Shown: in pieces, positions 49,196-54,979 of the stretch
Layout of the letters: each line of letters starts with the position of its first letter
Position numbering within the stretch: the stretch's first letter is position 1
Assembly: GCF_026107375.2 (NCBI RefSeq)
Contig: NZ_JAPCIA010000001.1
Coordinates: forward strand, 1,302,001-1,366,000
Direction of reading: 5' to 3'
Source: Sphingomonas sp. BT-65
Lineage (GTDB): Bacteria > Pseudomonadota > Alphaproteobacteria > Sphingomonadales > Sphingomonadaceae
Length of the DNA: 64,000 bases
The notes under the pieces: generated by a model
Database searches by the model: none
What the model saw: only the letters and a program-made list of their open reading frames with translations
What the model was told of the DNA's origin: nothing
Translations under genes and position numbers: made by a program

Positions 49196-49933
49196 ATGTC
49201 CCCCCGCCCTGTCGCCGTCCTCCACCGCATGGTCATGCCCGACCATATCTGCCCCTATGGCCTCAAGGCGAAGGCGCTGCTCGAACGGCGCGGTTACAAG
49301 GTCGAGGATCACTGGCTGCGCACGCGCGAAGAGACGGATGCCTTCAAGGCAGCGCATGACGTCAAGACCACGCCCCAGACCTTCATCGATGGCAAGCGGA
49401 TCGGCGGCTATGACGATCTCCGCCGCCATTTCGGCCTGCACGTGCCGGAGAAGGGCGAGACCAGCTACACGCCGGTGATCGCACTGTTCGCGATGACCGC
49501 GCTGATGGCGCTCGCCGCCAGCCATGCCATCGCGGGCTCGCCCTTCACGATCCGCGCGGCGGAATGGTTCATCTCGTTCAGCATGTGCGCTCTCGCGCTG
49601 CTCAAGCTGCGCGACGTCGAGAGCTTCTCGACCATGTTCCTGAACTACGACCTGCTCGCGCGGCGCTGGGTGCCCTATGCCTATATCTACCCCTTCGCCG
49701 AGGGTGCGGCGGGCGTGCTGATGACCGCCAACGCGCTGCACTGGCTGGCGATCCCGCTGGCGCTGTTCATCGGCGGCATCGGCGCGGTCTCGGTGTTCAA
49801 GGCGGTCTATGTCGACAAGCGCGAGCTCAAATGCGCGTGCATGGGCGGCGACAGCAACGTGCCGCTGGGCTTCGTCTCGCTCACCGAGAATTTGATGATG
49901 ATCGCGATGGCGGTATGGATGCTGGTGCGGTAA
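49196..49933 (+). CDS. Glutaredoxin-MauE fusion membrane protein
   Basis: 245 residues. Residues 1-80 form a glutaredoxin with active site HICPYGLK and cis-proline TTPQTFIDG. Residues 90-245 carry four membrane helices of the MauE/DoxX redox-associated type, ending near KCACMGGDSNVPLG, a CxC pair. It could move reducing power across the membrane. AAGGAG precedes the ATG. The divergent mer-type operator suggests induction by thiol-reactive stress. Confidence 0.88.
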   Translation: MSPRPVAVLHRMVMPDHICPYGLKAKALLERRGYKVEDHWLRTREETDAFKAAHDVKTTPQTFIDGKRIGGYDDLRRHFGLHVPEKGETSYTPVIALFAMTALMALAASHAIAGSPFTIRAAEWFISFSMCALALLKLRDVESFSTMFLNYDLLARRWVPYAYIYPFAEGAAGVLMTANALHWLAIPLALFIGGIGAVSVFKAVYVDKRELKCACMGGDSNVPLGFVSLTENLMMIAMAVWMLVR

Positions 49934-50296
49934 TCAGCTCCACGCGTCGAGCTCCTTGACCAGCTTCTTGGGCGCCTGGGCGCGATAGCTTTCCTCGATC
50001 CAGTCCTTGAGCTGCTCCATGTCGGGGATCGCATCGTCGCCGGGCGCGAAGCTCACCCAGCCGCTCTTGCCCAGGCCATAGGCGGTGGGCGTGGCGAAGG
50101 GCAGCTCGAGCGCGACCTCGCTCGTGTAGCGCAGCTTCACCGACATGCGGAATTCCTCGCCGGTCGAGAGATAGGCGAAGGTCTTGTCGTTGACCGCGAG
50201 GTCCGCATGGTCCGGCCACGGCGCCTTGATGTGCGCGCCGGGCAGGGTCAGTCCCCACGCCCGCAATTCGTCGATCACGGCCTTTGCCGTGGTCAT
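49934..50296 (-). CDS. MmcQ/YjbR family DNA-binding-like protein
   Basis: 120 residues, the CyaY-like YjbR fold (GAHIKAPWPDHADLAVNDKT, GLGKSGWVSF, EESYRAQAPKKLVKEL). Function in bacteria is unclear. Its start overlaps the stop of the aspartic-protease-like gene by four bases, so the two are coupled. Confidence 0.88.
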   Translation of the reverse strand: MTTAKAVIDELRAWGLTLPGAHIKAPWPDHADLAVNDKTFAYLSTGEEFRMSVKLRYTSEVALELPFATPTAYGLGKSGWVSFAPGDDAIPDMEQLKDWIEESYRAQAPKKLVKELDAWS

Positions 50297-51201
50297 CGCG
50301 GGTCGCCCGCGTCGCGGGGACGCTGCATCAGCCACACCGATTGACTGCGATAATCCACGGCGAATCCCTCCGTCGCCAGCCAGTCCATGCCCAGGATCGC
50401 CAGCATTTCCCCAGCGCCCGCGAGACGATCGAAGACCGGCAGCGCCCCGACTCTTACCGTGCGGCGCTGCCATTGCCACGGCCCCACGGCAATATCACCG
50501 ATCTCGCCCTGCAGCAGCGGCAAGGGCCGGCCGTCGATACCCTCGATCGAGCCGCCGGGGCGCAACCGGCTCGGGTCCAGCCCGGCCCGCCACGCGAAGG
50601 CGGGGTTGAGCGTGGTGAATTGCGCGCCTGTGTCGAGCAATCCCCAGCCACTCGCATTGCCGATCCGTACCGGCAGCATGATCTTCCACGGCTGAAGCCA
50701 TTTGGCCGCGACCGGCCGCCATTCCTCGCTCACCGCCTGCGCACCGCCCGGGGCGATGCGCACGCAACCGCTGCCGGGGATCCAGATCGTCAGCCGGTCG
50801 GCCAGCAGGTCGACGCCCGCGAGGCCCGCGACATCGTGGCTGTCGAACGACGGGGCCGGGAGCGACGGAACCACGACGTCGCGGAGCAGCACCGGGCCAG
50901 CCTCGATCGAGCGGATCCGGTGAAAATGGACCGCAACCCCTCCGCCCATCCCCTGGGCCTGCTCGGTCTTCGCATCCCGCGGCAGACCGAGCTGCGCGGC
51001 GCGGGCGGGATCGATGGTCGACCCGCTGGCCGCGGTATCGAGGATGAAGGCGAACGGCCCCTGATCGTTGATCCTGGCGCGGAGGATCGGCGTCCCTTGG
51101 TCGCCGGTCTCGATGGGGAGGCACGCCGCTGGCTCATCCGCCCGCGCCGGGGCGGCGATTGCCAGTCCGAGCAGCGCGGCGATCAACGGGATCCTGGTCA
51201 T
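50293..51201 (-). CDS. Exported retropepsin-like aspartyl protease domain protein
   Basis: 302 residues with a signal peptide (MTRIPLIAALLGLAIAAPARA). Two aspartic signatures are visible, ILDTAASGSTID near residue 55 and LLDTGAQFTTLN near 190, plus partner ILGMDWLA near the end. Two DTA/DTG loops in one chain suggest an intramolecular pepsin-like pair of retropepsin domains. A periplasmic peptidase is inferred; no substrate is known. Confidence 0.85.
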   Translation of the reverse strand: MTRIPLIAALLGLAIAAPARADEPAACLPIETGDQGTPILRARINDQGPFAFILDTAASGSTIDPARAAQLGLPRDAKTEQAQGMGGGVAVHFHRIRSIEAGPVLLRDVVVPSLPAPSFDSHDVAGLAGVDLLADRLTIWIPGSGCVRIAPGGAQAVSEEWRPVAAKWLQPWKIMLPVRIGNASGWGLLDTGAQFTTLNPAFAWRAGLDPSRLRPGGSIEGIDGRPLPLLQGEIGDIAVGPWQWQRRTVRVGALPVFDRLAGAGEMLAILGMDWLATEGFAVDYRSQSVWLMQRPRDAGDPR

Positions 51202-51247: not shown

Positions 51248-52636
51248 TCAGTCCTCGCGGCTCGGCAGCGTCAGCACGAAGCGCGCGCCCTGATCGGGGG
51301 CGCTGTCCACGAGGATGTCGCCGCCCATCGCCCGCGCCAGCCGCCGCGCGATGTAGAGCCCCAGCCCGCTGCCGCCCGGCTCCGCGGGATCGACGCGGCC
51401 GAACTTCTCGAAGATCTTCGCCTGGTCCGCGTCCGCGATGCCCTTGCCCTGGTCGGCGACGATCACGCAACCCAGCGCACCCTCGCGCTCCAGCCGCACC
51501 CACACCCAGCCACCGGGCGGCGAGTAGCGCACTGCATTGCCGATCAGGTTGACCATGATCTGCAGCACGCGGCGGAACTCGCCCGTCACCGGCATGCGTT
51601 CGTCGGCGCGCGGCTTCTCGATCCGCACGTCCGCTTCGCTCGCGCGCACCGCGAGCAGGCCGGCGGCGCGCCGCGCGACGTCGGCAAGGTCGATCGGCTC
51701 GAGCTCGACCGTGAAATCCTCGCGCTCGATCGCGGAGAGGTCGGCAAGGTCGCCGACCAGCGACAGCAGGTGCCGCCCGGCATTCGCGATATCGAGCGCA
51801 TATTCGGCATAGTCGTCGCGCAGCGGCCCGTCGACACGCGCGCTGATGCTGTCGGCATTGGCGATGATCCGCGCGAGCGGCGCACGCAGCGCCTTGTCGA
51901 GCCGCTGGCCGAACTCGCTGGTGAACTCGGGTTCGGCAGCGGGTGCGGGTACGGGCGCGGCTTCCGCCTCCTTCGCCGGATCGATCCGCGTCGCCGCGCC
52001 GCTGAAGCCGGCGAAGCGCCCTTGCGCATCGATGCGCGGACTGGCGGAAAGCCGCACGCGCTGGCCGGTTCCGCGCAGTTCCGCGACCTGCCCGTCGAAG
52101 CGCGCCTGCTCGACCGCGGCGGCCAGGATCGGCAGCGTGCCCGCGCCGTCCGCCTCCAGCGCGAACAGCAAAGTCAACGGCTGGCCGAGCATCGCGACCG
52201 GATCGAATCCGTTGAGCTGCCCGGCTTCGAACGGAAGATGCGTGATGCGCATCGCCGCATCGGTCTCCCACAGCCAGTCGGTCTCGGCGCGCAGGAAATC
52301 GTCCTCGCGCGCGGCATCGCCATCGGGCGCACGCCACGCGGCGCGCGGCCGCCAGCCGCTCACCTCGAGCCGCACGCCATCGGCATCGGGCTCGGCGCGG
52401 ACCCACAGGTCGATATCGTCCTCGCCATCGGCGGCGACGACGTTGCGGGAGACCGCGATGCCGAGCCGCTGCGCCAGCCGCGCGATCGCCGCGATCGGCG
52501 GCACCGCGATCGGCGCGCCCAGCTTGCCGCCCGCGCGCGCATTGAGGTCGGCCAGCCGCGCCTCGGCGTCGACCAGCAGCCCGTCGGGACCGACGCGTCC
52601 CATCGCGATCGGCGGGCGGGGCTCGATCGCGTTCAC
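51248..52636 (-). CDS. Histidine-kinase-like protein with Lys in place of H-box His
   Basis: 462 residues from a GTG overlapping the DUF2336 stop (GTGA). A PAS-like region (about 115-215) precedes a DHp-like helix pair and an intact HATPase domain: N-box NLIGNAVRYSPPGG, VADQGKGIADAD, IFEKFGR and GGSGLGLYIARRLA. The H-box is LDKALRAPLARII; the expected His is Lys248 (codon 51893-51895). It therefore cannot phosphorylate itself on histidine in the usual way. It could be an ATP-binding signalling scaffold like DivL, which has Tyr at this place. Confidence 0.88.
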   Translation of the reverse strand: MNAIEPRPPIAMGRVGPDGLLVDAEARLADLNARAGGKLGAPIAVPPIAAIARLAQRLGIAVSRNVVAADGEDDIDLWVRAEPDADGVRLEVSGWRPRAAWRAPDGDAAREDDFLRAETDWLWETDAAMRITHLPFEAGQLNGFDPVAMLGQPLTLLFALEADGAGTLPILAAAVEQARFDGQVAELRGTGQRVRLSASPRIDAQGRFAGFSGAATRIDPAKEAEAAPVPAPAAEPEFTSEFGQRLDKALRAPLARIIANADSISARVDGPLRDDYAEYALDIANAGRHLLSLVGDLADLSAIEREDFTVELEPIDLADVARRAAGLLAVRASEADVRIEKPRADERMPVTGEFRRVLQIMVNLIGNAVRYSPPGGWVWVRLEREGALGCVIVADQGKGIADADQAKIFEKFGRVDPAEPGGSGLGLYIARRLARAMGGDILVDSAPDQGARFVLTLPSRED

Positions 52637-53730
52637 CGGGCGACACTCCCGAGCGTGAAGACCGCCGCCCGATAATGGTGGGGCAGGCGCAGCGGCGCGA
52701 GCGCTTCCTGCGCTTGCGCCGGCGCGATCGCCATGATCGAATCGAGCAGATCGGCAAAGGCCTCGACATTGCGGCGCGGATCGGCCTCGCTCAGCGCCAC
52801 GCCGAGGCGCGCCACCGCGGCGCGATCGAAGTCGAGCGCGCGCAACGCGATCCACAGCCGCCCGCTCGACGCGTCGAACGTCATCGCGCGCGCCGCGTCG
52901 AAATCGATGTGCAGCGCATGCGCGAGCAGCGCGACGAACAGCGCGACGCGCCGGTCGCCGAGCGACTCGGTCATCAGCTCGGGCAGCTCGTCCGGCTGCG
53001 CGTCGAGCGCCACCGCCAGCCGCAGCGCCGCCGCCTCCACGCGCTCGCCCTCGTCATGCGCGGCGAGGCTGCGTTGCGCGGCATCGGCCAGCGCCCGGTC
53101 GAGCGCGGCCGTCGGTTCCATGACGCTCGCCCGCAACGCCGCCGCCACGCGCCACACGAGCTTGTGGTGCAGCTCCGCCGGAAGGTCGGTCTGCGCGAGC
53201 GGCCCGGCGTCCGGGATCCCGCGCCGACGGCTCTCCGCGACCAGCACCGCCGCCGCGTTGTGCGCCAGCAGCCGGTCGGGATGCAGCGCGAGCCGGCTGA
53301 GCAGGCTCGGCCGCTCGGGATCGTCCTGCGCCTGCACCTGCATGCCGCTCGCCAGCAGATCGAGCCGCACCCGTGCGATCAGCTCGCCCATCAGCTCGCG
53401 GTCGCGCAGCAGCCCGGAGTCGCGCAGCAGCCCGGCGACGCTCGCGCCGTTCGCCAGCGCGTCGGCCTGTTCCGCCTCGCTTTGGGTGCGCAGCAGCCGC
53501 ACGGCATGGCCGCGGACCTCGCCCTCGATCGTGTCGATCAGCGCGCGCAAAAGCTGCGCCAGTGCCGCGCGCGTGCGCTCGTCGAGCCGGCCGTCGTCGG
53601 GAACCAGAAAGTCGTCGATCGCCGCGCCGAGCGCACGATGCGCGGCGACATCCGCCGCCGCGGCACGCGCGAGCAACGCCTGTGCGCCGTCAAGGGCGCC
53701 TTCACGCATGTCGACATTCGGGTCGGACAT
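52633..53730 (-). CDS. DUF2336 domain protein
   Basis: 365 residues, mostly alpha-helical, matching DUF2336 (LLARAAAADVAAHRALGAAI, HPDRLLAHNAAAVLVAESRR). Helical repeat proteins of this kind are common in alphaproteobacteria and lack a known function. It overlaps the His-less kinase by four bases, so the two are made together and may bind. No signal peptide or membrane segment. Confidence 0.88.
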   Translation of the reverse strand: MSDPNVDMREGALDGAQALLARAAAADVAAHRALGAAIDDFLVPDDGRLDERTRAALAQLLRALIDTIEGEVRGHAVRLLRTQSEAEQADALANGASVAGLLRDSGLLRDRELMGELIARVRLDLLASGMQVQAQDDPERPSLLSRLALHPDRLLAHNAAAVLVAESRRRGIPDAGPLAQTDLPAELHHKLVWRVAAALRASVMEPTAALDRALADAAQRSLAAHDEGERVEAAALRLAVALDAQPDELPELMTESLGDRRVALFVALLAHALHIDFDAARAMTFDASSGRLWIALRALDFDRAAVARLGVALSEADPRRNVEAFADLLDSIMAIAPAQAQEALAPLRLPHHYRAAVFTLGSVAR

Positions 53731-53766: not shown

Positions 53767-54933
53767 CTAAGGCTTTTCCCGCCGACTCTCAACAGCCGCG
53801 GCGAGCGTGACGAACGCATAGACCGCGACCGCCGCCAGCCCCCAGCTCACTCGCCCCGCGATGGCGAAGGGCGCGACGAGCAACAGATAGGTCGCCGGGC
53901 TGCCCCACCAGCGCCGCACCAGCGCCTGGCTGCGCTCCGCGATCACCGTCGCCGCGATCGTCACCAGCGCCAGGATCAGCCCGTCGAGCGTCGCGGCGGC
54001 GCGCGTCTCGGTGATGCCGAGCGCCAGGATCACCGCCGCGGCGATCACCCCGATCAGCTGCTCCTGCACCCTCGCCCGCTTCTCTTCGCCACGTAGGGCG
54101 GACAGCGCCGCACCGGTCGCCAGCGCCGCCACGCCGGGCAGCGCCACGCCCGCGCCCCACGGCCAGCCGAGCGCCACCAGCGCCACCGCGCCACCGCCGA
54201 ACAGCACCCCGCCTGCCATCACCAGCCAGCCGGGCACCGCTTTCTCGACCACCTTGGGCAACGCCAGCCGGGCGAGGCGCGTGAAGACGTGCCGGTCGGC
54301 CCAGCTCGTCCGCCGCTCGGTCAGCGCGGCGAGCACCGCGTTGCTGCGCGAGGCGAGCGCCCCGCCGTCGCGCTCCACGCCATGCCCGGCGCGCACCGCG
54401 CTGCCCGGCAGCGGCACCTGCTCGGCGCCCGCCTGCACGATCGCGCGCAGCAAGGTGGACTGGAAATCATAGTCGGGCGGAAAGGACGCGATGTCGGCGA
54501 TGCGCTGCGCCGGCGCACGCGCGATCCCCGCCCAGCAGTGGCTCGCATCGACTCGTTCGAGCGAGGCGGCCGGATCCTGAGTCACCAGGATCGCGTCCTT
54601 GCCCTCGTTCGCGATTCTGTCGACCACATCGTCGGTGGTGACGAGCCCATCCGCCAGCACCACGAAGCTCGCCAGTGGGTGCGCCTTGGTCGAGGCTTCG
54701 GCGGCCGAGCGCACGATATCCACCGGCACGCCGCGCTTCGCCGCGCGGCTTACCGCGCCGAGCAATGCCGGCGTCACCCGCGTCACCGCGACCAGGATCT
54801 GCCCCGCTCCGGCGCCGACCAGCAGCCGCGCCTGGTATTCGAGCAAGGTCATGCCGCCGAACGGCAGCGTCGCCGCCAGCGTCCCCGGCTTGTCGCCCGC
54901 GTCCTCGGTCGCGAAAATGAGCCCCGCCAACAT
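53767..54933 (-). CDS. Nucleotidyltransferase-like membrane protein
   Basis: 388 residues. The N-terminal half resembles a sugar-nucleotide transferase fold (GGMTLLEYQARLLVGAGA, VVLADGLVTTDDVVD) though the usual GGxGTR loop is absent. Six or so membrane helices follow (residues 225-375), with no clear CDP-alcohol phosphotransferase signature. Function is unknown. The gene ends 36 bases before the DUF2336 start, possibly one operon. The ATG at 54933 begins MLAGLIFATEDAG. Confidence 0.72.
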   Translation of the reverse strand: MLAGLIFATEDAGDKPGTLAATLPFGGMTLLEYQARLLVGAGAGQILVAVTRVTPALLGAVSRAAKRGVPVDIVRSAAEASTKAHPLASFVVLADGLVTTDDVVDRIANEGKDAILVTQDPAASLERVDASHCWAGIARAPAQRIADIASFPPDYDFQSTLLRAIVQAGAEQVPLPGSAVRAGHGVERDGGALASRSNAVLAALTERRTSWADRHVFTRLARLALPKVVEKAVPGWLVMAGGVLFGGGAVALVALGWPWGAGVALPGVAALATGAALSALRGEEKRARVQEQLIGVIAAAVILALGITETRAAATLDGLILALVTIAATVIAERSQALVRRWWGSPATYLLLVAPFAIAGRVSWGLAAVAVYAFVTLAAAVESRREKP

Positions 54934-54979
54934 GGCTTTAGCGGTTAGGGGAATTGAGGGGGTGAAGGAAGAACCCAAT

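Follow-up and report, generated by a model that had tools for sequence, protein, structure and literature searches.

What becomes of a histidine kinase when the histidine itself is missing? This question is raised by a gene in a 64,000-nucleotide stretch of the genome of Sphingomonas sp. BT-65 (hereafter the window), whose product carries lysine (Lys248) where the phosphoacceptor of HisKA kinases sits. Its H box reads LDKALRAPL as opposed to xSHELRTPL: in the DHp domain the L-R-x-P core and the second-helix signature GPL..Y..YA.DI..A.RHL—which we take to resemble that of PleC/DivJ-type kinases—are kept, while H, E and T of HELRT are lost, and the Pfam HisKA score (23.4 bits) falls under the cut-off of 26.9. 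The HATPase_c match, on the other hand, reaches 94 bits against a cut-off of 26.4, and all four boxes of the ATP site (N, G1, F, G2) are intact. A reading made earlier from the letters of the window alone (the sequence-only reading) had reported the lysine, the intact ATP-binding boxes and a kinase start placed within the stop of a DUF2336 gene, and all three are indeed present (Table 1). At a probability of roughly 0.62, we favor the interpretation that the window protein is a pseudo-histidine kinase found throughout the Sphingomonadaceae, i.e., a docking module that binds ATP, does not phosphorylate and works together with DUF2336.

Table 1. Coordinates of the features of the DUF2336–pseudokinase locus, in positions of the window.
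Feature	Position	Strand	Remarks
Pseudo-histidine kinase gene	51248..52636	(-)	462 aa, GTG start
DUF2336 gene	52633..53730	(-)	365 aa, co-inherited partner; PF10098, co-occurrence, empty sites
GTGA overlap, 4 nt	52633..52636	(-)	DUF2336 stop TGA + kinase start GTG
PAS-like N-terminal region, residues 112-220	51977..52303	(-)	weak PAS_4 match
DHp domain, residues 238-305	51722..51925	(-)	H-box and second-helix motifs
Codon AAG, Lys248, phosphoacceptor position	51893..51895	(-)	within FGQRLDKALRAPLARIIANADSISA
HATPase_c (CA) domain, residues 355-460	51257..51574	(-)	94 bits
NTP-transferase-like gene	53767..54942	(-)	~5 predicted TM segments; ORF may start further upstream

The kinase start is preceded by a ribosome-site-like stretch (GGGAG), and the DUF2336 product matches PF10098 at 43.9 bits (curated cut-off 34.6). 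N-terminal to the DHp domain, the PAS_4 match covers residues 120-215 at 15.7 bits, under the cut-off of 23.1; in a His-bearing relative (L368) both PAS_9 and PAS_4 lie above cut-off. No transmembrane segment was apparent in the kinase-like protein in a hydropathy scan. Further along the window, an aspartyl protease gene (clan AA type, 50293-51201) lies 46 bases downstream of the pseudokinase and was seen only at the window's own locus, the flanks fetched for relatives spanning 1.5-3 kb, and the stretch 49196-49933 encodes a protein with a glutaredoxin-like N-terminus, after which come several hydrophobic segments that look MauE-like by eye.

A sequencing error at Lys248 is rejected, because lysine is also present in the top three database matches (97, 93 and 91% identical). 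Nor is the residue peculiar to this strain: the best 120 of 5742 database relatives have R (106) or K (14) at the site, and a genome search gave a match in 295/295 genomes of the genus, although in five of these (G181, G205, G236, G272 and G277; 83-88% complete) the best match is weak and may be another kinase. Over a wider range the site becomes highly variable. Among 109 distinct proteins from fetched loci it is R in 46, P in 32, K in 7, G in 6, T and E in 4 each, Q in 3, A, S and H in 2 each and N in 1, whereas the best 80 of 562 named-record loci (Sphingomonas, Sphingobium, Sphingopyxis, Novosphingobium, Erythrobacter, Porphyrobacter, Qipengyuania and others, several being metagenome assemblies) show ten residue types (P 42, R 14, G 7, Q 6, K 4, N 2, S 2, T 1, L 1, E 1) and no His (0/80). 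Overall, His is absent in 191 and present in 2 of 193 distinct Sphingomonadaceae members, a set obtained from 202 loci selected for their similarity to the pseudokinase by removing duplicates and any row that covered fewer than 180 DHp-CA columns; a family member with a canonical His (G343) was set apart and counted with the sister group. Residues seen across this set are P, R, G, K, Q, T, S, E, N, D, A, H and L, with no Tyr among the 193. Two proteins of one genus (g35; L070 and L082) have His at the site in the contexts IDHSFKPPL and IDHSFKPSI instead of HELRTPL, and are nested within the pseudokinase clade; this may be a chance state or a reversal. The check proposed by the sequence-only reading, namely whether Lys248 is fixed in the Sphingomonadaceae, thus fails as worded: because the site varies, lysine is not a special functional residue, and what the family has in common is the missing His.

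The loss extends beyond the phosphoacceptor. Mutational work on HisKA kinases indicates that the acid next to the His is needed for kinase activity, and a T/N at H+4 for phosphatase activity (PMC3510030). The H+1 acid is found in 0/193 pseudokinase members as opposed to 29/29 of the His-bearing sister kinases described below, and T/N at H+4 in 12/193 (all Thr, no Asn) as opposed to 29/29; the window protein has Ala249 and Ala252 at these positions. By contrast, nucleotide-binding residues are conserved far more than the N-terminal region in the family alignment: N363, N367, D395, G397, G422 and G424 are present in 193/193 members, and G399 in 192. The frame of the DHp domain is held as well, with the H-box Pro in 192/193, Arg at H+3 in 186/193 and each of the second-helix residues Y276, Y279, A286 and L290 in all 193.

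A third group of positions has changed and then settled. H+8 is R/K in 184/193 members versus Ala in 29/29 sister kinases, H+11 is Ala in 183/193 versus Gly in 28/29, and H+12 is Asn in 158/193 versus Phe in 29/29, and a new motif, RIIANA[DE], is nearly fixed among the 193. If the EnvZ phosphoacceptor is H243, as we assume, these positions correspond to R251, L254 and A255 of EnvZ. All three are listed among the specificity residues of that kinase (PMC2991266), and in DivL the residues R553 (H+3), T557 (H+7) and Y562 (H+12) are reported to be needed for full DivK~P binding (PMC4211667). The variable site, the lost acid and Thr, and the near-fixed H+8, H+11 and H+12 together suggest that the catalytic site has been freed to vary, and that the docking face around it was reset and then held.

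The association with DUF2336 is equally persistent. The order DUF2336 then kinase recurs among relatives, with an overlap of 4 nt in 11 and of 8 nt in 5 of 28, lengths that rest on script-chosen starts. Across genomes of the family, DUF2336 is found in 16 of 19 with the kinase (no match in G371, G382 and G437) versus 1 of 17 scored as lacking it, the latter defined with a single profile (A1): six had no match at E 1e-30, and the weaker matches of the other eleven were judged to be other kinases, the one inspected (L257, G523) having a canonical His. The sole exception among the 17 is G554, where DUF2336 lies beside a 257-aa, further degraded pseudokinase without most of its N-terminal region (L398:2896-3669). 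Co-loss of the pair gives a Fisher p of 2e-6, with G554 counted as lacking the kinase and without correction for relatedness. When one of the two genes is lost, the other mostly goes with it, and a functional pair is likely. Adjacency of the genes does not prove the complex that the sequence-only reading thought possible, and the equimolar synthesis that it derived from the overlap is likewise putative.

That reading had also drawn attention to a membrane nucleotidyltransferase-like gene just upstream. It is a conserved neighbor, but its candidacy as a third member of the unit is rejected, because it is retained in 13 of the 17 genomes without the pair; in addition, single-sequence comparison did not detect it near 20 fetched His-bearing loci. 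At 6 of 9 fetched loci (L399-L403 and L405) a clean empty site lies between gltA and the NTP-transferase-like gene, as judged from gene calls made with a simple script, which missed the NTP-like gene in L406 although another search found it. Given the co-loss, the empty sites and the retention of the NTP-like gene, the DUF2336–pseudokinase pair therefore is the unit, and the membrane gene a neighbor. Its nucleotidyltransferase-like domain, which precedes the predicted TM segments, gives only weak matches: NTP_transf_3 scores 17.4 bits (Pfam cut-off 27), and a profile searched against solved structures gives five weak matches (best E 0.019), four of which are nucleotidyltransferases. Across the Sphingomonadaceae the protein is very divergent (19-27% identity, six aligned), with invariant E-R, D, W and G residues. 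Beside it lies a large conserved gene (~690-1020 aa by script calls; L395:11029-13650 and relatives), with only an apolipoprotein-like Pfam match, below cut-off. As for DUF2336 itself, its profile has no solved-structure match up to E 10, and no mention of it was found in the open-licence literature searched.

The origin of the pair can be traced through relatives that still have the histidine. When 181 genomes from the class were queried with a profile built on 32 family members, the five best matches outside the family (G601, G727, G562, G653 and G686) proved to lie directly downstream of independently found DUF2336 genes, as do weaker matches in G655, G724, G597, G704 and G588; DUF2336 was detected at 7 of 27 class loci (L261-L287), many other matches having none found nearby. 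The corresponding gene of families elsewhere in the order, and of the outlying family member G343, also has a canonical H box and a DUF2336 gene upstream. Overall, 31/31 loci in this comparison at which a neighboring DUF2336 was detected have His; the profile behind that detection had been built from sequences outside the family and missed the DUF2336 genes beside pseudokinases. H, E and T of the H box are found in 29/29 sister kinases, which were picked for an adjoining DUF2336 and for falling in one clade.

The tree calculated without H-box columns shows the pseudokinases as one clade (support 95), within a branch of 69 rows (support 97) that comprises 37 pseudokinases, 29 DUF2336-linked kinases and 3 others. 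Because 10 of 39 kinase rows from DUF2336-bearing loci fall outside this branch, DUF2336 is also found near other kinases. In a second tree, with the longest branches removed, the pseudokinase clade reaches 100; its joint clade with the linked kinases was not recovered there by free search, but a tree constrained to contain it scores higher than the free-search tree (p-AU 0.864), so that the joint clade is not rejected. Most likely, to judge from these phylogenies and gene orders, the His was lost a single time, within the Sphingomonadaceae, in a kinase of the working type that already had DUF2336 as its neighbor. FlgK- or flagellin-type genes lie near 8 of 20 fetched His-bearing loci as opposed to 0 of 9 pseudokinase loci, one member of each cluster being checked with Pfam and the gene calls being made by a simple script. 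Departure from flagellar genes and loss of the chemistry may be linked. A flagellar role for the pseudokinase is not supported: 18 of the 20 listed, out of 98 FlgK-negative genomes in all, have a kinase match, and FlgK is present in 13 of the 17 genomes scored as lacking the kinase.

These observations suggest the following scenario. The ancestor would have been an active HisKA kinase already encoded directly downstream of DUF2336, which lost the His, the neighboring acid and mostly the phosphatase Thr, as judged by sequence, and kept the ATP-binding and dimer-helix residues together with the DUF2336 linkage. The present pseudokinase would dimerize and bind ATP, and either ATP occupancy or the PAS-like domain could set the shape of the DHp helices. 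A partner—possibly a receiver-domain protein, another kinase or DUF2336 itself—would then dock on the rebuilt response-regulator surface (R/K, A and N at H+8, H+11 and H+12) without any phosphate transfer, DUF2336 being a putative dedicated co-factor. The window protein thus probably works as a switch or docking platform and no longer as an enzyme.

One alternative is that function resides solely in DUF2336 and the PAS-like region, with a kinase core that makes no use of ATP and is a passive dimer scaffold. DivL offers a parallel, being described as without kinase activity and as binding an ATP analogue only weakly with all its other boxes kept (PMC4211667); we nevertheless hold this unlikely, given that the nucleotide-binding residues are near-completely conserved, far above the N-terminal region. 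A monofunctional phosphatase for a response regulator is improbable: H-to-A and E-to-A mutants of a HisKA kinase are reported to retain phosphatase activity, and 12/193 members have Thr at H+4, but the other 181, including the window protein, lack T/N there, and the corresponding changes in CrdS left no measurable (N375Q) or almost no (N375A) phosphatase activity (PMC3510030). Slightly less probable still is a kinase that remains active and autophosphorylates elsewhere, on Lys248, on another histidine such as H289 or on Ser/Thr. The ATP site is intact and H289, in the second DHp helix, is present in 191/193 members, but the His-bearing sister kinases have it almost as often (27/29), and it therefore looks structural rather than a replacement; moreover, the H+1 acid is gone in all members, and the site residue ranges over thirteen types.

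Two further possibilities seem barely tenable. The gene could be a decaying pseudogene in the course of being lost, as the kinase went undetected in 16 genomes of the family, which span nine genus codes, and the G554 copy is shorter and more degraded; against this, only one among the matches listed has an internal stop (G478, one TGA), the ATP-site residues are invariant in members down to 36% identity with the window protein, and the new docking motif is nearly fixed. It is just as hard to see the window protein as the Sphingomonas version of DivL, the CckA regulator. The defect is of the same kind, and DivJ-PleC-DivK is reported to be degenerate or lost in Sphingomonadales (PMC2877005), but the same genome has a separate DivL ortholog (L156; outside the window, at about 103523 of C1 in G000) whose phosphoacceptor position holds Tyr, its H box reading MSYELRTPL and its best solved structure being DivL (7.1e-37, next 1.6e-26). 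For the window protein, which has Lys instead of Tyr, DivL is the eleventh solved-structure match (fourteenth for the family profile), and the tree places it with the DUF2336-linked kinases and L156 outside. Orthology is therefore rejected, and two different pseudokinases coexist in this genome; the DivL precedent invoked by the sequence-only reading is an analogue only.

The preferred reading, an ATP-binding docking module paired with DUF2336, has several consequences. DivL is the textbook pseudo-histidine kinase, and the DUF2336-linked family would be a second lineage, spread through a bacterial family. Because its sister group survives with the His and with DUF2336 as partner gene, the steps from enzyme to non-enzyme can be read from sequence: a phosphoacceptor that drifts, an ATP site that is frozen and a docking face that is reset. 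DUF2336 gains a concrete partner and a test, and the database name 'sensor histidine kinase' is misleading for pseudokinase relatives. In Sphingomonadales, CckA-ChpT-CtrA is reported as kept and DivJ-PleC-DivK as degenerate or lost (PMC2877005), and this degeneration makes a cell-cycle role of the pseudokinase worth testing. A bolder extension, which we regard as doubtful, is that in Sphingomonadaceae a whole kinase–regulator step has become a chemistry-free switch, in which the ATP-gated docking module with DUF2336 might take over part of CckA-CtrA control as a second pseudokinase beside DivL.

Among known systems, the closest clade is formed by the active-type DUF2336-linked kinases of other Sphingomonadales families and other alphaproteobacteria, which share the gene order and the HisKA-HATPase core; they differ in having H, E and T throughout, and in lying near FlgK/flagellin-type genes at 8/20 loci. 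PleC/DivJ-type kinases are also similar, the window DHp-CA region matching the DivJ model NF050805 at 107 bits, but this is far below its cut-off of 1000 bits, the catalytic H, E and T are missing, and since several other kinase models score equal or higher, the match is not a specific assignment. Kinase-related sensor proteins described as without kinase activity are found in other phyla as well (a ChrS variant of Corynebacterium and RocA of Streptococcus), and by title and beginning of abstract, none of the literature on the term 'pseudo-histidine kinase' concerned the DUF2336-linked family. A further close system is DivL of Caulobacter, which is described as having a HisKA-type core without phosphoacceptor His, with the other boxes kept and a PAS input, and as binding a regulator on the usual docking face, where Y562, a DivK~P docking residue, matches H+12 of the pseudokinase (PMC4211667). 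DivL differs in having Tyr at the phosphoacceptor site, and Ala in Magnetospirillum (PMC4211667), whereas in the family of the window protein the residue drifts and is never Tyr among the 193; a further difference is the partner gene of the latter, DUF2336.
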